Below, piece after piece: positions 28,048 through 46,269 of a stretch of DNA of 64,000 bases. Source of the stretch: Donghicola mangrovi (GTDB lineage: Bacteria > Pseudomonadota > Alphaproteobacteria > Rhodobacterales > Rhodobacteraceae); assembly GCF_013377535.1 (NCBI RefSeq), contig NZ_JABCJE010000001.1, forward strand, positions 62,001 through 126,000. Reading direction: 5' to 3'. Made by a program: the position numbers and the translations under genes. Under the pieces are notes generated by a model. The model was not told where the DNA came from. It saw only the letters and a list, made by a program, of their open reading frames with translations, and did no database searches. Numbering within the stretch: the stretch's first letter is position 1; every line of letters begins with the position of its first letter.

Positions 28048-28374
28048 TCAGAGAAGCTGTTTCGCGATACAATCGTTGGCGGCGGGCGCCTTGATCAATT
28101 CCAGAATGCGGCGGGTCTGCATGTCGCTGGCCACGCCCATCTGGACGAAGTCGGTAATGTCTGCGGCAGGCGCGGTCTGGGCCACACAGGTGGCAACCAC
28201 CCCAGCCTGCGCCGCAGGCACGTAGTTTTCAATGACCGGAAGGATGGCCATAGCCGCCCCATTCCGGTCGATCGGAGCCGCGAGAGGCTGCTGGACAGTC
28301 TGTTGGCCACAGGCCGAAACCGCCAGCAGCAGACCGGCGGCCGTAGCCGCGCGGTATACTCCCGCAAATCCCAT
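28048..28374 (-). CDS. Small lipoprotein inside the sdh operon
   Basis: 108 aa. Signal peptide GVYRAATAAGLLLAVSAC with lipobox VSAC at about residue 22, then an Ala-rich helical domain with two further cysteines (TCVAQ and NDCIAKQLL). The start codon overlaps the sdhA stop (TGATG), and sdhB follows 12 nt later, so it is cotranscribed and probably coupled. No known domain. A role in the succinate dehydrogenase complex or its biogenesis is only inference from location. Confidence 0.7.
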   Translation of the reverse strand: MGFAGVYRAATAAGLLLAVSACGQQTVQQPLAAPIDRNGAAMAILPVIENYVPAAQAGVVATCVAQTAPAADITDFVQMGVASDMQTRRILELIKAPAANDCIAKQLL

Positions 28375-30179
28375 CAGAAGGTCCGTGCCTTGGGCGCGAT
28401 CTTCTTCAGCGCGATACCGCCCTGCTCTTCGGTTGTCAGCGGATCGACGATGACGGGGCGGTAGGTCAGATCGACCTTGTTGCCCTCGACGCGGCTGACG
28501 GTGTGGACGCGCCAGTTATCGTCGTCACGGGTTGCGAAGTCCTCGTGAGCGTGTGCACCGCGCGATTCCTTACGCGCCTCTGCGCCGACGATGGTCGCCA
28601 GAGCGTTGGGCATCAGGTTGGTCAGTTCCAGCGATTCCATCAGGTCGCTGTTCCAGACCAGGCTGCGGTCGGTGACTTTGATGTCGCCCATTTTGCCCGC
28701 GATTGCGGTCATGTCGGTGACACCTTGGCTCAGGGTTTCCGAGGTACGGAACACCGCTGCGTCACGCTGCATGGTCTTCTGCATTTCCAGACGCAGGTCT
28801 GCGGTCGGAATGCCACCCTTGGCATAACGGACGCTGTCGAAACGCTCGAAGCACTTCTCGACGCTGGCCACGTTGGTCGCGGGGATCGCGGCTTCGCGGT
28901 CCACAACCTGACCGGCGCGGATTGCGGCGGCGCGGCCGAACACCACGAGGTCGATCAGCGAGTTCGAGCCCAGACGGTTCGCACCGTGTACCGAAGCACA
29001 GCCAGCCTCGCCCACAGCCATCAGGCCGGGAACGACAGCGGTCGGGTTCTCTTCGGAGGGGTTCAGCACTTCGCCCCAGTAGTTGGTCGGAATACCGCCC
29101 ATGTTGTAGTGCACGGTCGGGATTACGGGGATCGGCTCTTTGGTCACGTCAACGCCAGCAAAGATGCGGGCCGATTCCGAGATACCGGGCAGACGCAGGT
29201 GCAGCGCTTCGGCGGGCAGGTGCGACAGGTTCAGGTGGATGTGATCCCCGTCCTTGCCAACGCCGCGGCCTTCGCGGATTTCCATGGTCATGCAGCGCGA
29301 AACGTAGTCGCGGGGCGCGAGGTCTTTGTACTGGGGCGCATAACGCTCCATGAAACGCTCGCCTTCGCTGTTGGTCAGGTAACCGCCTTCGCCGCGCGCA
29401 CCCTCGGTGATCAGACAGCCTGCGCCGTAAATCCCGGTGGGGTGGAACTGAACGAATTCCATGTCCTGCAGCGCCAGACCCGCGCGGGCCACCATACCGC
29501 CACCGTCACCGGTGCAGGTGTGCGCCGAGGTCGCGCTGAAGTAGGCACGGCCGTAACCGCCGGTCGCCAGAACAACCATCTTCGCGTTGAAGACGTGCAT
29601 GGTGCCGTCGTCCAGCTTCCAGCAGACAACGCCGGTGCAGACGCCATCGTCGGACATGATCAGGTCCAGCGCGAAGTATTCGATGTAGAATTCCGCGTTG
29701 TTCTTGACCGACTGGCCGTACAGGGTGTGCAGGATCGCGTGACCGGTACGGTCAGCCGCCGCGCAGGTACGCTGCACTGCGGGGCCCTCGCCGAATTCGG
29801 TGGTGTGACCGCCGAAGGGACGCTGGTAGATCTTGCCTTCTTCGGTACGGCTGAAGGGCACGCCATAGTGCTCCAGCTCGTAGACCGCTGCCGGCGCTTC
29901 GCGCGCCAGATATTCCATCGCGTCGGTGTCACCCAGCCAGTCCGACCCCTTTACGGTGTCGTACATGTGCCACTGCCAGCTGTCGGGACCCATGTTCCCC
30001 AGCGAAGCAGCGATACCGCCCTGCGCCGCAACAGTGTGCGAGCGGGTCGGGAATACTTTGGTCACACAGGCGGTACGCAGGCCCTGTTCGGCCATACCGA
30101 GGGTCGCACGAAGACCCGCACCACCGGCGCCGACGACGACCACGTCATATTCGTGTGTTTCGTACTGATATGCAGCCAT
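28374..30179 (-). CDS. sdhA: Succinate dehydrogenase flavoprotein subunit
   Basis: 601 aa, full length. Oxidises succinate to fumarate. FAD-binding Rossmann motif [20 protein letters not shown]. Covalent-FAD histidine in [16 protein letters not shown]. Active-site regions [25 protein letters not shown] and the HxxR-type [14 protein letters not shown]-terminal ...[15 protein letters not shown] at 30179, 15 nt after sdhD. Confidence 0.98.
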
Positions 30180-30194
30180 TTGCGCTTCTCCGAA

Positions 30195-30566
30195 TTAAAG
30201 TGCGATGCGGATGATCGAGAAGATGCCGGTTGCCGCAGCAGCGTAGCACAGGCAGTTCATCGCGATGATCGCATACTGGCCGGCCGCACCGTGAACGTAG
30301 TCCTCGATCAGGACCTGGAAACCGTTCTTGAAGTGCATGAAGCCGACGCCAAGGGTCAGGATCGCTACGATCGCGGGGAACGGATGCGCGTAATATGCGA
30401 CCATTTCCTCGTAGCTGCTGCCCAGAGCAGGACCGAAGGTGAACACGAACAGCGGGACCAGGATCAGCAGACCGATCGAGCTGACTTTCATGTTCCAGAA
30501 ATGCTCGACGCCCGATTTGGCCGAGCCCATGCCGGTAGCGCGCTTGCGGGGGGTAAGATATGCCAT
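30195..30566 (-). CDS. sdhD: Succinate dehydrogenase membrane anchor subunit
   Basis: 123 aa with three transmembrane helices. MAYLTPRKRATGMGSAKSGVEHFW is the alphaproteobacterial SdhD start. The H-F-K-N segment (GVGFMHFKNGFQVLIEDYVHG) follows, with D-Y near the quinone/heme site. ATG at 30566; the longer frame upstream runs into sdhC and is a shadow. Confidence 0.94.
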   Translation of the reverse strand: MAYLTPRKRATGMGSAKSGVEHFWNMKVSSIGLLILVPLFVFTFGPALGSSYEEMVAYYAHPFPAIVAILTLGVGFMHFKNGFQVLIEDYVHGAAGQYAIIAMNCLCYAAAATGIFSIIRIAL

Positions 30567-30580
30567 CTGACGCTCTCCTC

Positions 30581-30973
30581 TTATGCGACCAGCATGATGA
30601 TCCAGGTCAGCACGGTCAGTGCTGCGGACCCGATAACCACGGCCCAGCTCAGGCTTTCGGCGGTTTTGATGTCCAGCGCGATGACCTGATCCCAGATCAG
30701 GTGACGGACGCCTGCCAGGGTATGGTACCACAGGCCCAGGACGGACAGACCCATGACCAGATCGCCGAACCAGCTGGTGACGATGCCATCTGCGAACGCA
30801 TAGTATTCGGGGCCCGAAGCGGCCGCCAGAAACCACCATACGGTCATCAGCGCTGCAACCAGCAGAGCGTTACCGGTGATACGGGTCAGGATCGACGTAA
30901 TCGCAGTAATCGGCAAGCGATAGATCGTCAGGTGCGGTGAGAGCGGGCGGTTGCCCCGATTCACATCAGCCAT
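30581..30973 (-). CDS. sdhC: Succinate dehydrogenase cytochrome b556 subunit
   Basis: 130 aa. RPLSPHLTIYRLPITAITSILTRITG is the signature with the quinone-site S and R. The heme-ligand histidine lies in LGLWYHTLAGVRHLIWD. Three transmembrane helices. ATG at 30973 with GAAAGGAACACTT upstream (AAGGA). First gene of the operon. Twin TGTGATCACA palindromes lie 143-173 nt upstream. Confidence 0.95.
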   Translation of the reverse strand: MADVNRGNRPLSPHLTIYRLPITAITSILTRITGNALLVAALMTVWWFLAAASGPEYYAFADGIVTSWFGDLVMGLSVLGLWYHTLAGVRHLIWDQVIALDIKTAESLSWAVVIGSAALTVLTWIIMLVA

Positions 30974-31115
30974 AAGTGTTCCTTTCGGTTGCGCAGCCGA
31001 CTCCCAGGCGGCCGCGGTGCCTCGGGCAGATTGATAGCCGATTTTCACGATCTGTCACGGCTTCAACGTGCCGCAGAGCAGCATTTTATCGCGTTTCTGT
31101 CATATTTTTTGCGAA

Positions 31116-31146
31116 TGTGATCACACAATTATTCCGTGTGATCACA
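31116..31146. promoter_or_regulatory. Twin TGTGATCACA palindromes upstream of sdhCDAB
   Basis: Two perfect copies of the palindrome TGTGATCACA, at 31116-31125 and 31137-31146. Their centres are exactly 21 bp apart, which is two helical turns. The identical motif with identical spacing occurs upstream of sucC (36873-36903). They lie in the 180-bp gap between mch and sdhC. No other copy was found in the window's intergenic DNA. Interpreted as a cooperative operator. Confidence 0.8.
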
Positions 31147-31154
31147 TTTTAGCG

Positions 31155-32186
31155 TTAACAGGGAATCAATACCCAGTAATCCAGATCCAAGAGTACTTCG
31201 CTCAGGTATTTTCCGTTTTCGTCCTTGAGCGCAAAGGGTTCACCACCCTTGGTTGCGACCAGTCGCAGACGAAGAGCGCCAACACCGGGCGCTGCGGTTT
31301 CGGCTTTGTCCAGAACTTCGGTCCAGCATTTCACGGTATCACCGGCGAAACAGGGGTTCGCGTGCGCCCCGCCGTTAATGCCCACGATCATCTGCGCGTT
31401 GGCCAGACCGTTGAACGACAGCGCCCGCGCCATCGAGATCACGTGGCCGCCGTAAATCAGGCGCTTGCCATCTTCGCGGAAGGTCGCGTCGAAGTGCACC
31501 TTGGCGGTGTTCTGCCACAGGCGCGTGGCCAGCATATGCTCGGCTTCTTCGATGGTCACACCGTCCACGTGGTCGATCTTTTCGCCCACTTCGTAATCGG
31601 CCCAGCGATGCCCCTCGCCTGCCAAGGTGAAGTCATAGCCGGTGAAATCCAGCCCCTCGGGGATCACCAGATCCTCGACCGACAGGACCTTTTTCAGGTC
31701 GGGCACAACGGCATCGGGCGCAGGCGCGGTCACATCGCGTTTGCGGACCATCACCCAGCGGACATATTCCATGACCACTTCGTCGTTCTGGTTCAGGCCC
31801 TGAGTGCGCACATAGACCACCCCGGTCTTGCCGTTCGAGTTCTCTTTGACGCCGATCACTTCGCTGCGCGAGCGCAGGGTGTCCCCCTCGTAGACCGGTT
31901 TCAGGAAGCGGCCCTCGGCGTAGCCAAGGTTTGCAACCGCGTTAAGCGAAACGTCAGGGACGGTTTTGCCGAACACGGTGTGGAACGCGATCAGATCATC
32001 CATCGGCGATTTGGGCAGACCGCTGGCCTGCGCAAAGGCGTCCGACGAATACAGTGCATGACGGGCAGGATAGAGCGCGTGGTACAGCGCCCGCTCCCCG
32101 CCCGATACCGTCCGCGGAACCGCGTGGTCAATCACTTGGCCCACTGCATAATCTTCAAAGAAACGTCCCGCGTTGGTCTTGCTCAT
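31155..32186 (-). CDS. mch: Mesaconyl-CoA hydratase (beta-methylmalyl-CoA dehydratase)
   Basis: 343 aa with two tandem MaoC/hotdog domains. EMC pathway step: mesaconyl-CoA + H2O to beta-methylmalyl-CoA. N-terminal GRFFEDYAVGQVIDHAVPRTV and second-half WADYEVGEKIDHVDGVTIEEAEHM, then IYGGHVISMARALSFNGLANAQMIVGINGGAHANPCFAGDTV, matching the Mch family and its length. It is the last gene of mcl2-nnrU-DUF1737-mch. Confidence 0.92.
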   Translation of the reverse strand: MSKTNAGRFFEDYAVGQVIDHAVPRTVSGGERALYHALYPARHALYSSDAFAQASGLPKSPMDDLIAFHTVFGKTVPDVSLNAVANLGYAEGRFLKPVYEGDTLRSRSEVIGVKENSNGKTGVVYVRTQGLNQNDEVVMEYVRWVMVRKRDVTAPAPDAVVPDLKKVLSVEDLVIPEGLDFTGYDFTLAGEGHRWADYEVGEKIDHVDGVTIEEAEHMLATRLWQNTAKVHFDATFREDGKRLIYGGHVISMARALSFNGLANAQMIVGINGGAHANPCFAGDTVKCWTEVLDKAETAAPGVGALRLRLVATKGGEPFALKDENGKYLSEVLLDLDYWVLIPC

Positions 32187-32187
32187 G

Positions 32188-32394
32188 TCATTGCTCTCCG
32201 AGTTTCATGCCGGGGGTGTACTCACCCTCGATCTCTTTGGTGACCGCCTGACCGCAGCGCATTTTCCCTGCCGCATGATCAAACGAATAAGTCGGGTTGC
32301 CATGCAGTTCCCAGCCCTTGGACAGGGCCAGAGTCACCTTGTGGCAAAAGTCCGAGGTGTCGTCCTCGGTCAAAAAACGATAGATTTTGCTCAT
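32188..32394 (-). CDS. DUF1737 protein in the mcl2-mch operon
   Basis: 68 aa. MSKIYRFLTEDDTSDFCHKVTLALSKGWELHGNPTYSFD is the DUF1737 core (YR.LTG.DD..FC..V...L..GW.L.G.P). The function is unknown. Its stop is 1 nt from the mch start and it begins 5 nt after nnrU, so it is firmly within the EMC operon. AGGAT precedes the ATG at 32394. Confidence 0.8.
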   Translation of the reverse strand: MSKIYRFLTEDDTSDFCHKVTLALSKGWELHGNPTYSFDHAAGKMRCGQAVTKEIEGEYTPGMKLGEQ

Positions 32395-32399
32395 CAGTC

Positions 32400-32951
32400 T
32401 TATCCTTGTGGGAAGGGCGAGACGCCCAAAGCCATATGAATGCCCGTGATCGCGCCGAACGCAACCAAGGTGATGATCACAAGGATGATGTCCCGTTTGG
32501 CGGGGCCCTTCTCGGGACGCTCCCATTCGGGGGCCGCGCGGTTGATCAGCATGACCTGCAGGCCCGCCCACAAAAGCATACCGCCGAACAGCACTATCGA
32601 GGCCAGATCCCCGTTCACAAGCAAATGCGCAACCGCCCAGATTTTCACCGCGATCAGCATCGGATGACGGGTCCAACCGCGCAGGCGGCCTTTGGTGTGG
32701 GCCGTGCCGAACACGAACACCGCAACCAGCATCAAGAGGTTATTCAGGTGAACGGTCCACGTGGGCGGGAACCACACGTTGATGAAGTCGGCGTTGCGAT
32801 AGCCGACAATCATCATCCCGAGGCCCATGACGATCAGCAGGGTCGACAGACCTTTGGCCTTCTGGCCCATCTGTTCATGAAGTTCGGGAAGAATTCGCTT
32901 GTAATAGTGGCCCCCTGCCCAAAGCAGGAGACCGAGGATAAGGATCAGCAT
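32400..32951 (-). CDS. NnrU-family membrane protein in the mcl2-mch operon
   Basis: 183 aa with about five or six membrane helices. NnrU signature segments are LLLWAGGHYYKRILPELHEQMG at the N-terminus and GWTRHPMLIAVKIWAVAHLLVNGDLASIVLFGGMLLWAG, which carries the R-H-P and A-H motifs. NnrU was named in nitric oxide metabolism, and relatives include isoprenoid-modifying enzymes. No denitrification gene is nearby; its place between mcl2 and DUF1737 is unexplained. Confidence 0.85.
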   Translation of the reverse strand: MLILILGLLLWAGGHYYKRILPELHEQMGQKAKGLSTLLIVMGLGMMIVGYRNADFINVWFPPTWTVHLNNLLMLVAVFVFGTAHTKGRLRGWTRHPMLIAVKIWAVAHLLVNGDLASIVLFGGMLLWAGLQVMLINRAAPEWERPEKGPAKRDIILVIITLVAFGAITGIHMALGVSPFPQG

Positions 32952-32957
32952 TCTGGA

Positions 32958-33815
32958 TTACTCCGCGGATAGAGCTGCAATTGCCTCCGCTTGTGCCAGA
33001 ATTTTCTTCGCTGTGACAATGTGAAGGTTCTCGACGATCTTGCCGTCGACCACCGCAACGCCCTGCCCTTCGGCCTCGGCGGCCTCGAACGCGGCGATTT
33101 GGCGCTGGGCCAGATCAATCTCGGCCTGGGACGGTGCAAAGGCTGCGTTGCAAACCTCGACCTGTGCGGGGTGGATCAGCGTCTTGCCGTCAAAGCCCAT
33201 GTCGCGGCCCTGCTCGCATTCCGCTTTCAGACCTTCGTCATCTTTGAAGGCGTTATACACACCATCAACGATAGTCACGCCGTGGGCCTTGGCGGCCAGC
33301 AGGCACAGTTGCAGGCTGGTGATCATCGGCAGACGGTCGGCGCGGAAGCGGGTGTTCAGCTCCTTGGCCAGATCGTTGGTGCCCATGACAAAGCCCTTCA
33401 GCGCGGGGTGGGCTGCGATCGCCTCGGCGTGCAGCATCCCTTTGCAGGTCTCCATCATGGCCCAGATGTCCTTGCCGGGTACCAATGCTGCAAGCGCATC
33501 CAGCTGCTCGGGTCCGTCGACCTTGGGCAGCAGAACCGCGTCGCATTCCATAGTGGCTGCGGCGCGGGCATCGTCTTCGCCCCACTGGGTGTCCAGACCG
33601 TTGATCCGGACGATCTTCATGCGGCTGCCATAGCCCCCTGCGGCCAGCGATGCCTTCAGGGTGTCACGAGCGCCCAATTTTTCATCAATCGCAACAGCAT
33701 CTTCGAGGTCGAAGATGATCGCATCGACGGGCAGGGTCTTGGCCTTGTCCAGCGCACGCTCTTTGGAGCCGGGGATGTAAAGTACCGAGCGGGTGGGCCG
33801 TGTGGTCGCGTCCAT
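32958..33815 (-). CDS. mcl2: (3S)-malyl-CoA thioesterase (Mcl2 type)
   Basis: 285 aa CitE-like TIM barrel. RSVLYIPGSKERALDKAKTLPVDAIIFDLEDAVA has the Arg and Glu/Asp substrate/Mg residues. Further motifs are AMMETCKGMLHAEAIA and GRDMGFDGKTLIHPAQVEVCN. The 285-aa length matches Rhodobacter Mcl2 (malyl-CoA hydrolysis to malate + CoA) rather than the longer Mcl1 lyase (~318 aa), and it is operon-linked to mch as expected. Lyase activity cannot be excluded by sequence alone. Confidence 0.82.
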   Translation of the reverse strand: MDATTRPTRSVLYIPGSKERALDKAKTLPVDAIIFDLEDAVAIDEKLGARDTLKASLAAGGYGSRMKIVRINGLDTQWGEDDARAAATMECDAVLLPKVDGPEQLDALAALVPGKDIWAMMETCKGMLHAEAIAAHPALKGFVMGTNDLAKELNTRFRADRLPMITSLQLCLLAAKAHGVTIVDGVYNAFKDDEGLKAECEQGRDMGFDGKTLIHPAQVEVCNAAFAPSQAEIDLAQRQIAAFEAAEAEGQGVAVVDGKIVENLHIVTAKKILAQAEAIAALSAE

Positions 33816-35836: not shown

Positions 35837-36843
35837 CATTTCAGGCGGTCCAGCAGGTCCCCTGCCCGTTCGCGCAGGATCGCATCGAACCCCTCGACCG
35901 ACAGATCGGGCATATAGCCCAGTTGCGCCGCGATCTGGTTCGCCGGATCAAAGGGCGCGTCCACGAACATATCCCGATCCTCGAGCCGCGCGCGCAAACC
36001 GCCATCGGTGACCTTCAGGCGGTTGTGGAACTTCAGCAGCCCACCGGGGCTATGGGACCGTCGCAGCGCCATCAGCACCTGTTCGCGCCGGTGCCCGCCA
36101 AGCATCCCCTCCACGACCTCTCGGGGCAGACGGGCATAGCGCAGCACCTTCACCATCCAGTGCAACGGCGTCATCCCGTCAAAGTGCAGCAAAGCCATCT
36201 CTGGCACGTAATCGCCGCGGATGCGTTTCTCTTCCTCTTTCGGGGAATGAATGCCGATCCGCCACCCCTGCCGCGTGGGCATCAGGGCTTTGCCCGCGGA
36301 ATGGCCTGTCAGCCCTTTGGTCAGGAACGGCGTGGAGCGCCAGAATAGGTCCTGATCGTCCTGAAGCTTGCCCAGATAGGGCACACGAAAGCCGCCCTCG
36401 AACAAAGAGGTCGGCGGCGTGTCGGTCAGGTAGGTGCGTTCCCACGGCTGGATGCGCAGGAATCGCCCCTCACGGGCGTATTCGCCGATGATCTGGGACA
36501 CGGGCCGTTCGGGCATCAGGAACTCGTCCGCGTCCAGATGGATCATCCAGTCCGCGCCGGTTTTCCGGTAGGCATCGGTCGCGTTCAAGCCTTGCCTACG
36601 GGTCTGCCGCGCATCCCCTGCCCGACCGTCCAAACGGGCCCAATGGGCGGCACCGCACCGAATGACGTTGACACCCGCAACCACTTGCAGTTGATCACCC
36701 ACAGTGTCCATTGGGTCATCAAGGTACACATGTACCTCAGAAGCACCAAGGGACAGGTGCCACGCCACATTGGCCATAACCAATGGCGCAGGCTCCCTGA
36801 CGGTCATGACAACCGCCCAACTTATGTTAGCGCCCGACGTCAT
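35836..36843 (-). CDS. Glycosyltransferase family 2-type protein (GT-A, DxDE motif)
   Basis: 335 aa. WAVVMTVREPAPLVMANVAWHLSLGASEVHVYLDDPMD is the N-terminal nucleotide-sugar-binding strand typical of 'glycosyl transferase family 2, 2_4' proteins in Rhodobacteraceae. The metal-binding D-x-D is in MIHLDADEFL. The acceptor and product are unknown; it may act on a surface polysaccharide. The ATG at 36843 has only a weak RBS. It is divergent from sucC, and the twin palindromes lie 30-60 nt upstream of its start. Confidence 0.75.
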   Translation of the reverse strand: MTSGANISWAVVMTVREPAPLVMANVAWHLSLGASEVHVYLDDPMDTVGDQLQVVAGVNVIRCGAAHWARLDGRAGDARQTRRQGLNATDAYRKTGADWMIHLDADEFLMPERPVSQIIGEYAREGRFLRIQPWERTYLTDTPPTSLFEGGFRVPYLGKLQDDQDLFWRSTPFLTKGLTGHSAGKALMPTRQGWRIGIHSPKEEEKRIRGDYVPEMALLHFDGMTPLHWMVKVLRYARLPREVVEGMLGGHRREQVLMALRRSHSPGGLLKFHNRLKVTDGGLRARLEDRDMFVDAPFDPANQIAAQLGYMPDLSVEGFDAILRERAGDLLDRLK

Positions 36844-36872: not shown

Positions 36873-36903
36873 TGTGATCACACCCTCAAAACCTGTGATC
36901 ACA
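36873..36903. promoter_or_regulatory. Twin TGTGATCACA palindromes upstream of sucC
   Basis: Perfect TGTGATCACA at 36873-36882 and 36894-36903, with centres 21 bp apart. This is the same sequence and spacing as at 31116-31146 before sdhC. They lie 108-138 nt upstream of sucC and 30-60 nt upstream of the divergent glycosyltransferase. A weaker relative, CTGATCACG, is at 36931-36939. Confidence 0.8.
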
Positions 36904-37010
36904 AAATGCAGATTTTTGCCGATTTTCAAGCTGATCACGCAAAAACTCCTTAATCCGGCGATTTCATGAGCGTATAGGTACACCGAATTTCAGCAAGATG
37001 GGACAGGTCC

Positions 37011-38204
37011 ATGAACATTCACGAATATCAGGCCAAAGCACTGCTGCGCGAATACGGCGCACCGGTCAGCGACGGCCGCGTCGTGCTCAAGGCCGAAGAC
37101 GCTAAAACCGCTGCTGGCGAGCTTGACGGCCCCCTCTGGGTTGTAAAGGCGCAAATCCACGCAGGTGGCCGCGGCAAGGGCAAATTCAAAGAAGCCGATG
37201 CTGGTGAAAAGGGCGGTGTCCGCCTTGCCAAGTCGGTTGAAGAAGCAGCCGAAGAAGCCAAGAAAATGCTTGGCCGCACTCTGGTAACCCACCAGACCGG
37301 TCCCGCTGGCAAGCAGGTCAACCGCATCTACATCGAAGATGGCTCGGACATCAGCCGCGAACTGTACCTCGCGCTGCTCGTTGACCGTCAGACCAGCCGC
37401 ATCTCGTTCGTTTGCTCGACCGAAGGTGGCATGGACATCGAGGAAGTCGCAGCATCGACCCCCGAAAAGATCCTGTCGTTCTCGGTTGATCCGGCAACCG
37501 GCTACCAGCCCTACCACGGCCGCCGCATCGCGTTCTCGCTGGGCCTCGAAGGTGCGCTGGTCAAGCAGTGCGTCAGCCTGATGGGCACTCTCTACAAAGC
37601 CTTCGTCGAGAAGGACATGGAGATGCTGGAAATCAACCCGCTGATCGTCATGGACAACGGCAACCTCAAGGTTCTGGACGCCAAAGTCGGCTTTGACGGC
37701 AACGCCATCTACCGCCACCCCGAGATCGCCGCTCTGCGCGACGAGACCGAAGAAGATCCCAAAGAACTGGCAGCCTCGAAGTTCGACCTGAACTACATCG
37801 CGCTGGACGGCGAGATCGGCTGCATGGTGAACGGTGCGGGTCTGGCGATGGCCACCATGGACATCATCAAACTGTACGGCGCAGAGCCTGCAAACTTCCT
37901 CGACGTTGGCGGCGGCGCCACCAAAGAGAAAGTGACCGAAGCCTTCAAGATCATCACCTCGGATCCGAACGTAAAAGGTATCCTCGTGAACATCTTCGGC
38001 GGAATTATGCGCTGTGACGTGATCGCAGAAGGCGTAATTGCGGCTGTTAAGGAAGTCGGACTGAAAGTTCCGCTGGTCGTACGCCTCGAAGGCACTAACG
38101 TCGAGAAGGGTAAAGAGATCATCAACACCTCTGGTCTCGACGTGATCGCCGCAGACAACCTTAGCGACGGCGCGGAGAAGATCGTTAAAGCAGTGAAAGG
38201 TTAA
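37011..38204 (+). CDS. sucC: Succinyl-CoA synthetase beta subunit (ADP-forming)
   Basis: 397 aa. [24 protein letters not shown] is the canonical start. ATP-grasp region [26 protein letters not shown]-equivalent [10 protein letters not shown]. Succinate/CoA side [20 protein letters not shown] and [13 protein letters not shown]. With SucD it makes ATP from succinyl-CoA. ATG at 37011 with ACAGG upstream. First gene of the suc-odh operon. Confidence 0.98.
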
Positions 38205-38206
38205 GT

Positions 38207-38464
38207 ATGCGTTTTTTGGTTCTGGTTGGCTGTGTTTTTGTTTCGGCCTGTGTGAATTTCAATGCCCCCGCTCATCCGGTGGGACAAACTCAACAGGACG
38301 ACTTCATCGGGTATAACGAGGGCGACCGCCCCGCGCCTCTGGCAGGCATACCCGCAGATGCAGCCCCAGGACCAATCGCATCGGGTTCGGACGGCCCTCT
38401 TAGCTGCCCCGCAGGTACATTGCTGATCCAAACTACGGACGGCCGAGCCTGCGCACCCGAATAA
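38207..38464 (+). CDS. Small lipoprotein inserted between sucC and sucD
   Basis: 85 aa. Signal peptide MRFLVLVGCVFVSAC with lipobox VSAC (Cys15). The mature part is Pro/Asp-rich, ending with SCPAGTLLIQTTDGRACAPE, which has two cysteines that could form a disulfide. It starts 2 nt after the sucC stop. No known domain. The location parallels the lipoprotein within sdhCDAB at 28048. Confidence 0.65.
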   Translation: MRFLVLVGCVFVSACVNFNAPAHPVGQTQQDDFIGYNEGDRPAPLAGIPADAAPGPIASGSDGPLSCPAGTLLIQTTDGRACAPE

Positions 38465-38476
38465 CCACTCACTGAG

Positions 38477-38560
38477 TGTAGGGTAGAGAGTGAAAAACCA
38501 GTCCTGACCGGGCCCCATTCCCGGAACCTTGGTCAGGAAATGGTCGCGCTCTACCCGGCG
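38477..38560 (+). ncRNA. Nested stem-loop element in the suc mRNA before sucD
   Basis: Outer helix GGGTAGAG (38481-38488)/CTCTACCC (38549-38556), extended inward by GTG/CGC and outward by TGT/GCG with mismatches. Inner helix CCTGACC (38503-38509)/GGTCAGG (38531-38537), with CCA/TGG below it, and an apical GGG/CCC. There is no T-tract, so it is not a terminator. Possible roles: mRNA processing or stability, or control of sucD translation. No known RNA family recognised. Confidence 0.5.
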
Positions 38561-38624
38561 CCAGATGTAACAAGGGTTCGGAACCATCCGGACCGTTTCG
38601 TAGAAAAACTTAGGAGCCAACAAC

Positions 38625-39509
38625 ATGGCAGTCCTCATCGACGAAAACACCAAGGTCATCTGTCAGGGCTTTACCGGCTCGCAGGGCACCTTCCACTCGG
38701 AACAGGCGATCGCTTACGGCACCAAAATGGTCGGCGGCGTAACCCCCGGCAAAGGCGGCTCGCAGCACCTCGGCCTGCCCGTGTTCAACTCGGTCCACGA
38801 AGCCAAGCACGTCACCGAAGCAAACGCGACCGTGATCTACGTTCCCCCGCCGTTCGCAGCGGACTCGATCCTCGAGGCCATCGACGCGGAAATGGAACTG
38901 ATCGTCTGCATCACCGAAGGTATCCCGGTACTGGACATGATGAAGGTGAAGCGCGCGCTTGAAACCAGCAAATCGCGCCTGATCGGCCCGAACTGCCCCG
39001 GCGTCATCACCCCCGATGCATGCAAAATCGGCATTATGCCCGGCCACATCCACAAGCGTGGCTCGGTCGGCGTTGTGTCGCGTTCGGGCACCCTGACCTA
39101 CGAAGCTGTGAAGCAGACCTCGGACGCGGGCCTCGGCCAGTCTACCGCAGTCGGCATCGGCGGCGACCCGATCAAGGGCACCGAGCACATCGACGTGCTG
39201 GAAATGTTCCTGGCAGACCCCGAAACCCAGTCTATCATCATGATCGGTGAAATCGGTGGTTCGGCCGAAGAAGAAGCGGCACAGTTCCTGGCCGACGAAA
39301 AGAAAAAAGGCCGTTGGAAGCCCACCGCTGGCTTCATTGCTGGCCGTACCGCTCCTGCTGGCCGCCGCATGGGCCACGCCGGTGCGATCGTCGCAGGCGG
39401 CAAAGGTGGCGCAGAAGACAAGATCGAAGCCATGCTGTCGGCTGGCATCGTTGTCGCTGACAGCCCCGCCGGTCTCGGCGAAGCCGTGCTGAAAGCAATC
39501 GGCAAATAA
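38625..39509 (+). CDS. sucD: Succinyl-CoA synthetase alpha subunit
   Basis: 294 aa. CoA-binding Rossmann region ([38 protein letters not shown]). [40 protein letters not shown]. Catalytic phospho-histidine in [10 protein letters not shown] (His near 246). RBS TAGGAG lies before ATG 38625. Separated from sucC by the lipoprotein gene and a structured 160-nt gap. Confidence 0.98.
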
Positions 39510-39518
39510 GCCCTTGTA

Positions 39519-39585
39519 CCGGACCTGCTGCACATTGCGGGTCCGGCTGAACCCATCAGCCCGCCCGAGGGACGCCTCGGGCGGG
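39519..39585 (+). other. Two intercistronic hairpins between sucD and sucA
   Basis: Hairpin 1: CCGGACC (39519-39525)/GGTCCGG (39540-39546). Hairpin 2: CCCGCCCGAGG (39560-39570), GACG loop, CCTCGGGCGGG (39575-39585), a perfect 11-bp stem. Neither is followed by T residues. These are typical of mRNA stabilising or processing sites, or of an attenuating structure before odhA. Confidence 0.6.
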
Positions 39586-39608
39586 TCCAACCTAACTCAG
39601 GTGCAGCG

Positions 39609-42572
39609 ATGACCGACCAATCCCCGAACGACCAGTTCCATGCCTCGAGCTTCTTGCAAGGGCACAATGCTGAATACATCGAACAGCTTTACGCCCGTTA
39701 TGCCACTGACCCGAATTCCGTAGATGAATCCTGGCAGGCTTTCTTTGCGGCCCTCGGTGATGGGGAAGTCGAAGTCAAGAAAGAGGCCCAAGGCGCCTCG
39801 TGGGGCCGCACCGACTGGCCGCCGCTGCCCGCAGGCGACAACGTCTGGGCTCTGACCGGCGAATGGCCGGAAGCTGCCAAAGAAGTCAAAGGCGCTGGCG
39901 ACAAGATCAAAGCCAAAGCCGCCGAAAAGGGCGTAGAGATTTCCGACGAGCAGGTGAAACGCGCTGTTCTCGACTCCGTCCGCGCGCTGATGCTGATCCG
40001 CGCCTACCGTATTCGTGGCCACCTGGCTGCCGACCTGGATCCGCTAGGTCTGCACGGCCGTGAGCCCCACCCCGAGCTGGACCCCAAAGCGTACGGCTTC
40101 ACCGAAGCCGACATGGATCGTCCGATCTTTATCGACAACGTTCTGGGCCTTCAGGTCGCGTCGATGCGCCAGATCGTGGACATCGTCAAACGCACCTATT
40201 GCGGCACCTTTGCCCTGCAGTACATGCACATCTCGGATCCCGAGCAGTCCGCATGGCTGAAAGAGCGCATCGAAGGCTACGGCAAGGAAATCACCTTTAC
40301 CCGTGAAGGCCGCCGCGCGATCCTGAACAAACTGGTCGAGGCCGAAGGCTTCGAAAAGTTCCTGCATGTGAAATACATGGGCACCAAGCGTTTCGGCCTC
40401 GACGGTGGCGAAGCGCTGATCCCCGCGATGGAACAGATCATCAAGCGCGGTGGCGCGCTGGGTGTTCGTGACATCGTTATCGGTATGCCTCACCGCGGCC
40501 GTCTGTCGGTCCTGGCCAACGTGATGGGCAAACCCTACCACGCGATCTTCAACGAATTCCAAGGCGGCAGCTTCAAGCCCGAGGACGTCGACGGTTCGGG
40601 TGACGTGAAGTACCACCTCGGCGCATCGAGCGACCGCGAGTTCGACGGCAACAGCGTTCACCTGTCGCTGACCGCGAACCCCTCGCACCTCGAGGCCGTG
40701 AACCCCGTTGTTCTGGGCAAGGTCCGCGCGAAACAGGAACAGCTGGGTGACAAGGCGCGTACTCAGGTTCTGCCGATCCTGCTGCACGGCGACGCGGCCT
40801 TCGCAGGTCAGGGCGTTGTGGCGGAATGCTTCGGTCTGTCGGGTCTGGTCGGTCACCGCACCGGCGGCACCATGCACATCGTGGTGAACAACCAGATCGG
40901 CTTCACCACCGCGCCGCACTTCTCGCGCTCGTCCCCCTACCCCACCGACATCGCTCTGATGGTCGAGGCGCCGATCTTCCACGTGAACGGCGACGATCCG
41001 GAGGCTGTGGTTCACGCGGCCAAGGTTGCGACCGAGTTCCGTCAGAAGTTCCACAAAGACGTTGTTCTGGACATCTTCTGCTACCGCCGCTTCGGTCACA
41101 ACGAAGGCGACGAGCCGATGTTCACCAACCCGCAGATGTACAAGCAGATCAAGTCGCACAAGACCACTCTGTCCCTGTACACCGAGCGTCTGGTCAAGGA
41201 CGGCCTGATCCCCGAAGGCGAAATCGAGGATATGAAGGCGCAGTTCCAGGCGCACCTGAACGACGAGTTCGAAACCGGCAAGACCTACAAGCCCAACAAG
41301 GCTGACTGGCTGGACGGCCGCTGGTCGCACCTGAACAAGCAGGGCGAAAAGTACCAGCGCGGCAAAACCGCCATCAAGCCCGAGACCATGGCAGAGGTCG
41401 GCAAGTCGCTGGTGCACGCACCCGCGTCCGTGGACATCCACAAGACCGTTGCCCGTCAGCTGGACGCCAAGGCGCAGATGTTCGCCACCGGCGAAGGCTT
41501 TGACTGGGCCACCGGCGAGGCACTGGCGTTCGGCTCGCTTCTGACCGAGGGCTACCCCGTTCGTCTGGCAGGTCAGGACTCGACCCGTGGTACGTTCTCG
41601 CAGCGTCACTCGGCCTTCATCGACCAGACCACCGAAGAGCGTTACTACCCGCTGAACAACATCCGCGAAGGTCAGGCACGCTACGAAGTCATCGACTCGA
41701 TGCTGTCGGAATACGCGGTTCTGGGCTTTGAATACGGCTACTCGCTGGCAGAACCCAACGCGCTGACCATGTGGGAAGCCCAGTTCGGCGACTTCGCAAA
41801 CGGCGCTCAGATCATGTTCGACCAGTTCATCTGCTCGGGCGAAAGCAAGTGGCTGCGTATGTCGGGTCTGGTCTGCCTTCTGCCCCACGGCTTCGAAGGT
41901 CAGGGCCCCGAGCACAGCTCGGCCCGTCTGGAGCGTTTCCTGCAGATGTGTGGTCAGGACAACTGGATCGTGGCGAACTGCTCGACCCCGGCGAACTACT
42001 TCCACATCCTGCGTCGCCAGATGCACCGCAGCTACCGCAAGCCGCTGGTTCTGATGACCCCGAAATCCCTGCTGCGCCACAAGCTCTGCGTCAGCAAGGC
42101 CGAGGACTTCACCACTGGTTCCAGCTTCCACCGCGTCCTGTGGGACGATGCGGAACGCGGCAACTCAACCACCCAGCTGGCCGCAGATGCGGATATCAAG
42201 CGCGTGGTGATGTGCTCGGGCAAGGTCTACTACGATCTGCTCGAAGAGCGTGACGCACGTGGCATCAACGACGTGTACCTGCTGCGTATCGAACAGTTCT
42301 ACCCCTTCCCGGCGATCTCGCTGGTCAAGGAACTGGAGCGTTTCCCACACGCAGAGATGATCTGGTGTCAGGAAGAGCCCCAGAACCAGGGCGCCTGGAC
42401 CTTTATCGAGCCCAACATCGAGTGGGTCTTGCGCCGGATCAAGGCAACGCACGGCCGTCCCCGTTACGTAGGCCGCGCAGCAAGCGCGTCGCCCGCAACG
42501 GGTCTGGCATCGCAACACAAAGCACAACAAGCGGCGCTCGTGGACGAGGCGCTGACCATCGAAGGAAAGTAA
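39609..42572 (+). CDS. sucA: 2-oxoglutarate dehydrogenase E1 component
   Basis: 987 aa thiamine-diphosphate enzyme that decarboxylates 2-oxoglutarate. N-terminal [36 protein letters not shown]/Mg region [21 protein letters not shown] and [20 protein letters not shown]...[10 protein letters not shown]. Transketolase-like [15 protein letters not shown] and [23 protein letters not shown]. Full length. ATG at 39609 with AGGTG upstream; sucB follows after 4 nt. Confidence 0.98.
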
Positions 42573-42576
42573 GCAA

Positions 42577-44079
42577 ATGACTGAAGTCCGCGTTCCCACC
42601 CTGGGTGAATCCGTGACCGAGGCAACCGTTGCCACCTGGTTCAAGAAACCTGGCGACCGTGTCGAGGCTGACGAAATGCTGTGCGAACTGGAAACCGACA
42701 AGGTCACCGTCGAGGTTCCCGCACCCGCCGCTGGCGTCCTGACCGAGATCGTTGCTGCCGAAGGCGAGACCGTCGGCGTTGACGCTCTGCTGGCCAACAT
42801 CAGCGCCTCGGGCGAGGCAGCAGCCCCCGCCCCCAAAGCAGCCGCCCCCGCGGCTGCCCCCGCAGCGGCTGCCGCTTCGGTTGACGTCATGGTCCCGACC
42901 TTAGGTGAATCCGTGACCGAAGCCACCGTTTCGACCTGGTTCAAAAAGGTCGGCGACACCGTTGCTCAGGACGAGATGCTCTGCGAGCTGGAAACCGATA
43001 AAGTATCGGTCGAAGTGCCCGCACCCGCAGCTGGCGTTCTGACCGAGATCCTGTTCGCCGAAGGCACCACCGTCGAAGCTGGCGGCAAGCTGGGTGTCAT
43101 CGCATCGGGCGAAGGCGCAGCCGCAGCTGCCCCCGCCACAGCACCTGCCGCAGCCGCTCCTGCCGCTGCATCGGGCGCCAAGGATGTCGAGCACGCCCCC
43201 GCCGCCAAAAAGGCAATGGCAGAGGCTGGCCTGACCGCTGCTCAGGTTCAGGGCACCGGCCGTGACGGTCGCATCATGAAAGAAGACGTGGCCGCTGCTG
43301 CCGCCGCTGTTGCCGCCGCCGCCAAGGCCGCGCCCGCACCGGCCGCTGCACCCCGCGCCCCCGTTGCTGCAGACGACGCATCGCGCGAAGAGCGCGTGAA
43401 AATGACCCGTCTGCGTCAGACCATCGCGCGCCGTCTGAAAGACGCGCAGAACAACGCCGCAATGCTGACCACCTATAACGAGGTGGACATGACCGGCGTG
43501 ATGGAACTGCGCAACGAGTACAAAGACCTCTTCGAGAAGAAACACGGCGTCCGTCTGGGCTTCATGTCCTTCTTCACCAAGGCGTGCTGCCACGCTCTGA
43601 AAGAGGTCCCCGAGGTCAACGCCGAGATCGACGGCACCGACATCGTCTACAAGAACTACGTCCACATGGGCATCGCGGCCGGCACCCCCCAGGGTCTGGT
43701 TGTGCCTGTCATCCGTGACGCGGACCAGAAGTCCTTTGCCGAGATCGAAAAAGAGATCAACGAAAAGGGCAAGCGCGCACGTGACGGCAAGCTGTCGATG
43801 GCCGAAATGCAGGGCGGTTCGTTCACCATTTCGAACGGCGGCGTCTACGGCTCGCTGATGTCCTCGCCGATCCTGAACCCCCCGCAGTCGGGTATCCTCG
43901 GCATGCACAAGATCCAGGATCGTCCGATGGTCGTGAACGGTCAGATCGTCATCCGTCCGATGATGTACCTGGCGCTGTCCTATGACCACCGCATCGTTGA
44001 CGGCAAAGGCGCTGTGACCTTCCTCGTCCGCGTCAAAGAAGCACTCGAAGATCCCCGCCGTCTGCTGATGGATCTGTAA
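42577..44079 (+). CDS. sucB: 2-oxoglutarate dehydrogenase E2 (dihydrolipoyl succinyltransferase), two lipoyl domains
   Basis: 500 aa. Two near-identical lipoyl domains with lipoylated lysines K42 and K142 (both in ELETDKV), exactly 100 residues apart and joined by Ala/Pro linkers. The peripheral subunit-binding domain is [14 protein letters not shown]...[13 protein letters not shown]. The catalytic acyltransferase domain ends with [15 protein letters not shown] (catalytic His/Asp). E. coli SucB has a single lipoyl domain, so this is a duplicated form. Core of the OGDH complex, between E1 and E3 genes. Confidence 0.97.
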
Positions 44080-44082
44080 TAA

Positions 44083-44364
44083 ATGACGGGCCAGCCCGCG
44101 AAGCGGCAGAAGACGTTCTCCGGAATGTTGACGCCGACACTAAATAACTTCGCGGGCTGGCTCTTTCTTTACCTCGTATCTTTCTTTTTCTACGCCAGCT
44201 TCGGCTTCCAGCTATCGACTGCACTGCAAGACCCGCACGGCAAGGCCGGCCTTCTTGCTTTGGCGGCAGCGATAGTCACCTACACAGGCTGGATACCGCT
44301 GGTAATCATTCTGGTTCGCGCCCTGATGGGGCAGGAAAACACTGAAACGCCTCATGGTGAATGA
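44083..44364 (+). CDS. Small two-helix membrane protein in the odh operon (93 aa)
   Basis: Two hydrophobic segments (FAGWLFLYLVSFFFYASFGF and AGLLALAAAIVTYTGWIPLVIILVRALMG) with a basic N-terminus. It starts right after the tandem stops of sucB (TAATAAATG) and ends one nucleotide before the MAPEG start. The function is not recognised; it is probably cotranscribed with sucB. Confidence 0.6.
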   Translation: MTGQPAKRQKTFSGMLTPTLNNFAGWLFLYLVSFFFYASFGFQLSTALQDPHGKAGLLALAAAIVTYTGWIPLVIILVRALMGQENTETPHGE

Positions 44365-44365
44365 G

Positions 44366-44776
44366 ATGACGACCGAACTCACAGTCCTCACCCTCGCCGC
44401 CCTGCTACAGGTCGTCCAGTTCGTCCTGATGTCCGTTCCTGCGAACCTCGAACTCGGCCCCGGCAAAACGATGGGACCCCGCGATCCGGAGCGCCTTGGC
44501 AAACCGTTGATCGAACAGGTCTCCCCCCGCACCGGCCGCCTGTTCCGCGCCCTTAATAACCACTTCGAGGGTCTGATCCTCTTTTCCATCGCCTGCGTCG
44601 TGATCACCCTGTCGGGCCAATCGACCGCCCTGACCGGCGCCTGCGCGTGGATCTACCTTGTGGCCCGCATCCTCTATGTGCCCGCCTATGCCTTCGGGCT
44701 TGTGCCGTGGCGCTCGGTGATCTGGGCTGTCGGCTTCATCGCCACCACCATCATGCTGGTCTCGGCCCTCGTCTAG
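44366..44776 (+). CDS. MAPEG-family membrane protein
   Basis: 136 aa with four membrane helices. MAPEG landmarks are [35 protein letters not shown] (R-x2-N-x2-E) and [24 protein letters not shown]. The eukaryotic family covers glutathione transferases and leukotriene synthases; the bacterial role is unclear. The ATG at 44366 has GGTGA 5 nt upstream, better than the ATG at 44354. Confidence 0.8.
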
Positions 44777-44803
44777 ACCCGCCCCGCCAACACCGCCAAG
44801 GCC

Positions 44804-44852
44804 TCTTCATCTTGGCAAAAATACCCCGGGGGCCCGGGGGCAGCGCCCCCGG
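44804..44852 (+). repeat. Intergenic CATCTTGGCAAAAATACC repeat with GC hairpin
   Basis: CTTCATCTTGGCAAAAATACC, then CCGGGGGCCCGGGGGCAGCGCCCCCGG split as CCGGGGGC, CCGGGGGC and AGCGCCCCCGG, which folds into a strong hairpin. It is the best-preserved copy of the family also found at 18719, 55502, 9925 (reverse) and 24879 (degenerate). Located 28 nt before lpdA. Confidence 0.65.
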
Positions 44853-44880
44853 CCTCGACCACCAGAAAGGAACTTCGAAA

Positions 44881-46269
44881 ATGGCATCCTACGACGTCAT
44901 CGTGATCGGCGCCGGACCCGGCGGCTATGTTTCGGCCATCCGCGCCGCACAGCTCGGCCTGAAAACCGCCTGTGTCGAGGGTCGTGAAACCCTCGGCGGC
45001 ACCTGCCTGAACGTGGGCTGCATCCCCTCCAAGGCGCTGCTGCACGCCACCCACCAGCTGCACGAAGCAGAGCACAACTTTGCGGCCATGGGCCTCAAGG
45101 GCAAAACCCCGACCGTCGATTGGGACCAGATGCAGTCCTACAAGGGCGACGTGATCGGCCAGAACACCAAGGGCATCGAGTTCCTGTTCAAGAAGAACAA
45201 GGTTGACTGGCTCAAGGGTTGGGCCTCGATCCCCGAAGCTGGCAAAGTCAAAGTCGGCGACGAAGTCTATGAAGCCAAGAACATCATCATCGCGTCCGGC
45301 TCGGCTGTGGCCACCCTGCCCGGCATCGAGATCGACGAAGAGATCGTCGTGTCCTCGACCGGCGCGCTGTCGCTGCCCAAGATCCCCAAGAAGATGGTTG
45401 TGATCGGCGCAGGCGTCATCGGTCTGGAACTGGGCTCGGTCTACAAGCGTCTGGGTGCCGAAGTGACCGTCGTGGAATACATGGACGGCATCACCCCCGG
45501 TCAGGACCTCGAGGTTGCGCGCACCTTCCAGAAACTGCTGGCAAAACAGGGCCTGAACTTTGTTCTGGGTGCCGCCGTTCAAGGCGTCGAAAAGGCCAAG
45601 AACAAAGCCAAAGTCACCTACAAGCTCAAGAAAGACGACAGCGAGCATACCCTCGATGCGGACGTCGTTCTGGTGGCCACCGGCCGCAAGCCCTTCACCG
45701 ACGGTCTGGGCCTTGCCGAACTGGGTGTCGAGATGACCGAACGCGGCCAGATCAAGACCAACGCCCACTGGCAGACCAACGTGCCCGGCATCTACGCGAT
45801 CGGTGACGTGATCACCGGCCCGATGCTGGCCCACAAAGCCGAAGACGAAGGCATGGCCGCCGCCGAAGTGATCGCGGGCAAGCATGGCCACGTGAACTAT
45901 GGCGTCATCCCCGGCGTGATCTACACCCACCCCGAGGTTGGCAGCGTTGGCGCCACCGAAGAGCAGCTCAAGGCCGAAGGTCGCGCCTACAAGGTTGGCA
46001 AGTTCAGCTTCATGGGCAACGGCCGCGCCAAGGCGAACTTTGCCGCTGACGGCTTTGTCAAACTGCTGGCCGACAAAGAAACCGACCGCATTCTGGGCTG
46101 CCACATCATCGGCCCGATGGCGGGCGACCTGATCCACGAGATCTGCGTTGCGATGGAATTCGGCGCTTCGGCCGAGGATATCGCCCTGACCTGCCACGCG
46201 CACCCGACCTATTCGGAAGCGGTTCGCGAAGCGGCTCTGGCCTGCGGCGACGGCGCAATCCACGCCTGA
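44881..46269 (+). CDS. lpdA: Dihydrolipoyl dehydrogenase (E3)
   Basis: 462 aa flavoprotein that reoxidises dihydrolipoamide with NAD+. FAD motif [20 protein letters not shown]. Redox disulfide [16 protein letters not shown] (C-x4-C). NAD motif [41 protein letters not shown]-terminal active-site His-Glu in [13 protein letters not shown] at 44881 with GAAAGGAAC upstream. It is the E3 of the adjacent 2-oxoglutarate complex, and possibly shared. Confidence 0.97.

Follow-up and report, generated by a model that had tools for sequence, protein, structure and literature searches.

Twin palindromes before two TCA-cycle operons of Donghicola mangrovi, best read as operators of the known activator AkgR

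In Donghicola mangrovi, the sucCD-odh-lpd and sdhCDAB operons are each preceded by two palindromes that agree in sequence and in spacing. The question raised by this arrangement is which regulator reads the pairs, and what the fixed spacing means for its action. The stretch analysed here, referred to as the window, is 64 kb long. An initial annotation of it had proposed that a single GntR/FadR-like regulator, bound as two cooperating dimers, controls the steps from 2-oxoglutarate to fumarate. The observation is real and strongly conserved, and its interpretation is right in outline, yet in substance it is known as AkgR control.

The two pairs and the AkgR regulon

An exact search finds four copies of the 10-bp palindrome TGTGATCACA in the window. 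The annotation had described them as absent from the rest of its intergenic DNA; there is no fifth copy anywhere in the window. At both loci, two palindromes flank an N11 spacer, with their centres 21 bp apart. The suc pair lies 107 bp upstream of sucC, and the sdh pair lies 142 bp upstream of sdhC, on the strand opposite to sucC. Pfam identifies, downstream of 37011, the products SucC, SucD, OdhA (E1), E2 and Lpd; at the sdh locus, the minus strand encodes Sdh_cyt and SdhA. These assignments, together with the exact search, confirm both pairs and the operons that they precede.

28374..30973, minus strand: sdhC (30584-30973), sdhD and sdhA, succinate dehydrogenase operon; regulated genes (Pfam)
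31116..31125, no strand: proximal AkgR palindrome of the sdh promoter; exact match, pair kept before sdhC in 64/78 genomes
31137..31146, no strand: distal AkgR palindrome of the sdh promoter; exact match, pair conserved before sdhC
36873..36882, no strand: distal AkgR palindrome of the suc promoter, TGTGATCACA; exact match, pair kept before sucC in 69/77 family genomes
36894..36903, no strand: proximal AkgR palindrome of the suc promoter; exact match, centre 21 bp from that of the distal palindrome
37011..46269, plus strand: sucC, sucD, odhA, E2, (small ORFs) and lpd operon; regulated genes (Pfam)

The sdh pair is located between mch and sdhC. Genes for mesaconyl-CoA hydratase (mch), NnrU and an HpcH/CitE-type lyase adjoin sdh on the same strand (31155-33815).

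When the N11 pair is searched through the whole 4.3-Mb genome with at most three mismatches, only the sdh and suc loci are recovered, and the reversed control gives 0. The single exact palindrome occurs nine times genome-wide: four times in the window, once each before akgR and fumC, once at another intergenic position and twice within coding sequence. The two copies within coding sequence (L008, L011) were judged to be due to chance. The remaining intergenic copy (L009, G000:C12:490061-490070) lies 5' of a small ORF and a chromate-transporter-like gene, and is either a possible extra AkgR target or a chance occurrence.

AkgR, which we take to be RSP_0981 of Rhodobacter sphaeroides, is said to have been described by Imam et al. 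in mBio in 2015 as directly activating TCA genes. According to the published accounts, the R. sphaeroides AkgR activates transcription and has GTGATCAC among its sites (PMC6365646), and the GntR-family factor RSP_0981 is predicted to regulate exactly succinyl-CoA synthetase (sucCD), sdh and 2-oxoglutarate dehydrogenase (odh) (PMC4344238). In the present case, the operators contain the GTGATCAC core, sites of this type precede the sucCD, odh and sdh operons of the 2-oxoglutarate-to-fumarate segment, and a GntR gene co-occurs with them. RSP_0981 lies near RSP_0974-6 in R. sphaeroides; likewise, akgR is found a few kb from sdh in relatives (G046, L336), and near suc as well in several, such as G046. 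Because the regulated genes, the motif, the protein family and the gene neighbourhood all point the same way, the Donghicola pairs are best read as AkgR operators, a known regulon in a new genome. An apparently anonymous motif is tied to a known TCA-cycle activator, with exact operators in some 70 genomes.

The akgR candidate is located elsewhere in the same genome (contig C1:248420-249076). It encodes a 219-aa protein with a GntR winged helix (PF00392) and an FCD domain (PF07729, FadR C-terminal-type), both above curated cut-offs, in agreement with the GntR/FadR-like regulator that had been postulated. The protein scores below the cut-offs of every NCBIfam model that it matches, and its nearest named relative is that of Donghicola eburneus (95% identity). 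The FCD metal site consists of Asp and three His, and is present in many, not all, FCD members. In the akgR protein, His144 and His187 are conserved and Asn140 is found, these positions being assigned by pattern rather than from a structure; position 212, assigned in the same way, is Gln in 26/30 orthologues. Consequently, with the third FCD His and the Asp mostly missing, metal-dependent ligand binding by AkgR is uncertain. The biological role of McbR (YncC) of Escherichia coli differs from that of AkgR. By sequence, McbR is nevertheless the closest solved structure to the akgR protein (PDB 4p9f, E = 1.6e-21).

Spacing, promoters and the proposed mechanism

A survey of 150 family genomes, nearly all of different genera, for exact pairs separated by 3-30 bp finds them in 96, and in none with the backwards-read control. 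In relatives whose loci were fetched, neither absence of the pair nor random placement is seen: every one of the 29 exact pairs is located at sucC, sdhC or sucA. Promoters were also read directly in 80 family genomes, of which 77 have a readable sucC promoter and 78 a readable sdhC promoter. With a pair called at 17/20 matches or more, it is present before sucC in 69/77 and before sdhC in 64/78, and a control palindrome of the same composition reaches at most 14/20 matches in these promoters. Of 133 pairs, 119 have their centres 21 bp apart, 13 have a spacing of 20 bp and one of 19 bp; no other spacing cluster, for example at 10 or 31 bp, occurs among the family pairs.

The position of the pairs relative to the promoters is similarly constrained. 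A simple sigma-70 scan gives no consensus hit near sucC, and conserved blocks were used instead. Both promoters are therefore predictions, defined as conserved blocks and not as mapped start sites.

31031..31058, minus strand: predicted sdhC promoter, -35 GTGACA (31058-31053), -10 TATCAA (31036-31031); conserved element
36950..36978, plus strand: predicted weak sucC promoter, -35-like TTAATC (36950-36955), 17 bp, -10-like TATAGG (36973-36978); conserved block

The suc block starts 39-41 bp past the pair in 52/69 genomes and 28-31 bp past it in 12, while the sdh -35 element GTGAC[AT] begins 56-59 bp past the pair in 49 of the 56 genomes having the element. Deviating sdh promoters, located by a leave-one-out weight-matrix search, depart from the modal offset by about -22, -11, -9.5 (twice), +9.5 (twice) and +21.5 bp, and six confident suc cases deviate by about -10 bp. 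The confident deviations are closer to multiples of 10.5 bp than expected by chance (sdh p = 0.002, suc p = 1.5e-5), p-values that treat related genera as independent and are indicative. In the window itself, the predicted -10 elements lie 70 bp (suc) and 80 bp (sdh) from the pair, about one turn apart. The pair-to-promoter distance shifts only by about 10 or 21 bp at a time, which suggests two adjacent dimers on one helix face, phased with RNA polymerase. The fixed register with polymerase is proposed because the 20/21-bp spacing and the stepwise promoter offsets point to it together.

In the proposed mechanism, one AkgR dimer would bind directly to each 10-bp palindrome in D. mangrovi. Two dimers would thus sit two helical turns apart on one DNA face, probably touching. 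From a position some 86-118 bp upstream of the predicted starts, which fall near 36985 on the plus strand for sucC and near 31024 on the minus strand for sdhC, they would assist RNA polymerase, presumably by contact, at the weak sucCD-odh-lpd and sdhCDAB promoters. Expression of the 2-oxoglutarate-to-fumarate segment would thereby be matched to carbon supply, probably through a 2-oxoglutarate-linked signal to AkgR. At the single palindrome just before its own start codon, AkgR would limit its own expression by putative autorepression. As a whole explanation, each pair as a twin operator for the AkgR orthologue (GntR, FCD), with contacting dimers aiding polymerase and single-site autorepression, is in our judgement very probable.

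It is also conceivable that AkgR occupies both palindromes with dimers acting alone, the 21-bp spacing reflecting recruitment of a second site to the same face and no contact. Geometry by itself does not demonstrate contact, and a single palindrome is in use before akgR and, in the window genome, before fumC. Against such independence stands the spacing of 20 or 21 bp in 132/133 pairs. Contact between the dimers is indicated because no clusters occur at the other same-face spacings of 10-11 and 31-32 bp, and independent dimers are consequently considered unlikely. For the cooperative pair of dimers in the initial annotation, the near-invariant 21-bp spacing and the helical-turn promoter steps fit, and cooperativity itself is what we infer from them.

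A more far-reaching formulation of contacting AkgR dimers is advanced tentatively, at somewhat under an even chance: AkgR would activate only as a contacting dimer pair on an obligate phased twin, and a lone operator would repress akgR, making a spacing-coded switch that is family-wide and undescribed. The twin layout, the 20/21-bp spacing, the promoter phasing and the single akgR site were not found in PMC4344238 or PMC6365646, and the primary AkgR paper may contain them. Literature searches for paired FCD-GntR operators, and for TGTGATCACA as exact text, returned nothing relevant. The operator grammar, with twins at structural operons, a single site at akgR and helical phasing, may thus be the part that is new. 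Such a clear grammar makes TCA control easy to predict and test in marine Rhodobacteraceae, which are major ocean carbon oxidisers.

The regulator gene across genomes

The search for a co-occurring regulator gene, which the initial annotation had recommended, leads to akgR. Close orthologues (at least 64% identity) are present in 71/80 family genomes, and among 191 genomes sampled from the class, none outside the family has one at E <=1e-45. The pair itself, looked for in 241 genomes from across the class, turns up in three members of the window's family and once outside it, in family f13. Twin pair and regulator alike are essentially limited to the family Rhodobacteraceae.

Among 77 genomes, 68 have both akgR and the sucC pair, eight have neither, one has the pair without the gene and none has the gene without the pair. 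The sole genome with a pair and no akgR is a 91%-complete assembly in 210 contigs. The association is strong for the sucC pair (Fisher p = 4e-10) and for the sdhC pair (p = 1e-7), both values being nominal since the genomes are related. All eight genomes without the sucC pair fall among the nine without akgR; the family genomes lacking both are G004, G013, G016, G025, G043, G049, G054 and G076. Six sdh promoters have no clear pair despite the presence of akgR. The gene also carries the palindrome itself: in the window genome, an exact copy precedes the likely start by about 9 bp, and at 49/53 loci akgR is preceded by one TGTGATCACA matching at 9/10 positions or more, usually no farther than about 10-15 bp from a likely ATG.

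These distributions bear on the idea that a different regulator, a GntR paralogue or another factor, reads the twin while akgR merely co-travels. The window genome has about 26 GntR-domain genes, and in family f13 the same twin adjoins the gene for a distant GntR. However, in almost all genomes the start of akgR carries the palindrome, the gene is missing from all genomes without a sucC pair, and both regulon and motif correspond to those published for AkgR (PMC4344238, PMC6365646), which leaves a different reader very improbable. The f13 locus (L337 of G281, 991-1021) consists of an N11 twin with one mismatch, whose neighbours are an SDR gene and a further GntR/FCD-like gene; a related regulator outside the family may use the same twin layout.

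CRP/FNR-type sites, which the initial annotation had already excluded, can be discarded with near certainty. The TGTGA/TCACA half-sites do resemble CRP half-sites, but the 6-bp spacer between 5-bp half-sites is absent and the core is GATC. Moreover, GTGATCAC is almost invariant across 134 pairs, with variation only in the outer T and A, and presence of the pair tracks the GntR gene.

Hardly any probability attaches to chance palindromes (dinucleotide shuffles of the window hold on average 0.05 single copies and at most one), to a mobile repeat (spacer sequences differ among copies and among genomes) or to sites serving the divergent glycosyltransferase, whose start at 36843 is 30 bp from the suc pair. 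The closeness of that gene, as annotated, is correct; it is regarded as incidental because the pair is retained in relatives from which the glycosyltransferase gene is absent.

Further sites and related systems

Words resembling the site of a second regulator are found near both pairs. The motif of RSP_1663 (CceR) is GTT-N6-8-AAC, and CceR is also a predicted regulator of sdh in R. sphaeroides (PMC4344238). CceR belongs to the LacI family and has a different motif, unlike the GntR-family AkgR.

31147..31160, no strand: possible CceR-type site TTTTAGCGTTAACA, abutting the distal sdh palindrome; resembles the RSP_1663 motif, tentative
36825..36833, no strand: possible CceR-type half site TGTTAGCGC, upstream of the suc pair; tentative

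CceR-like words occur near the pair in 7/69 suc and 6/64 sdh promoters, and control words in 0-1; co-binding of CceR beside the pair is suggestive only.

A related protein in Pseudomonas simiae, PS417_07240, is GntR-like and 32% identical to AkgR, and the region of its own promoter contains the same GTGATCAC palindrome (PMC6365646). In contrast to AkgR, its proposed role is control of deoxyribonate catabolism and not of the TCA cycle, and one palindrome is reported (PMC6365646).

Compared with the R. sphaeroides AkgR regulon, Donghicola carries an additional site at fumC, where a single exact palindrome (L010, G000:C12:492427-492436) lies 107 bp upstream of the gene. In G034, of the same genus, a second site 21 bp away makes this a 21-bp twin. 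A site of at least 9/10 within 300 bp of fumC is absent in 25/28 relatives, and the exact site is found only in the window genome and G034. Consequently, fumC was rejected as a core target. The fumC site was apparently acquired within this genus, suggesting that fumarase is a recent recruit to the AkgR regulon.

In a family genome of 2.4 Mb whose spacers are A/T-rich (L061, G123:C1:87752-87782), the twin sits between mdh and sucA; therefore, the operon order was altered there and the operator stayed with odh.
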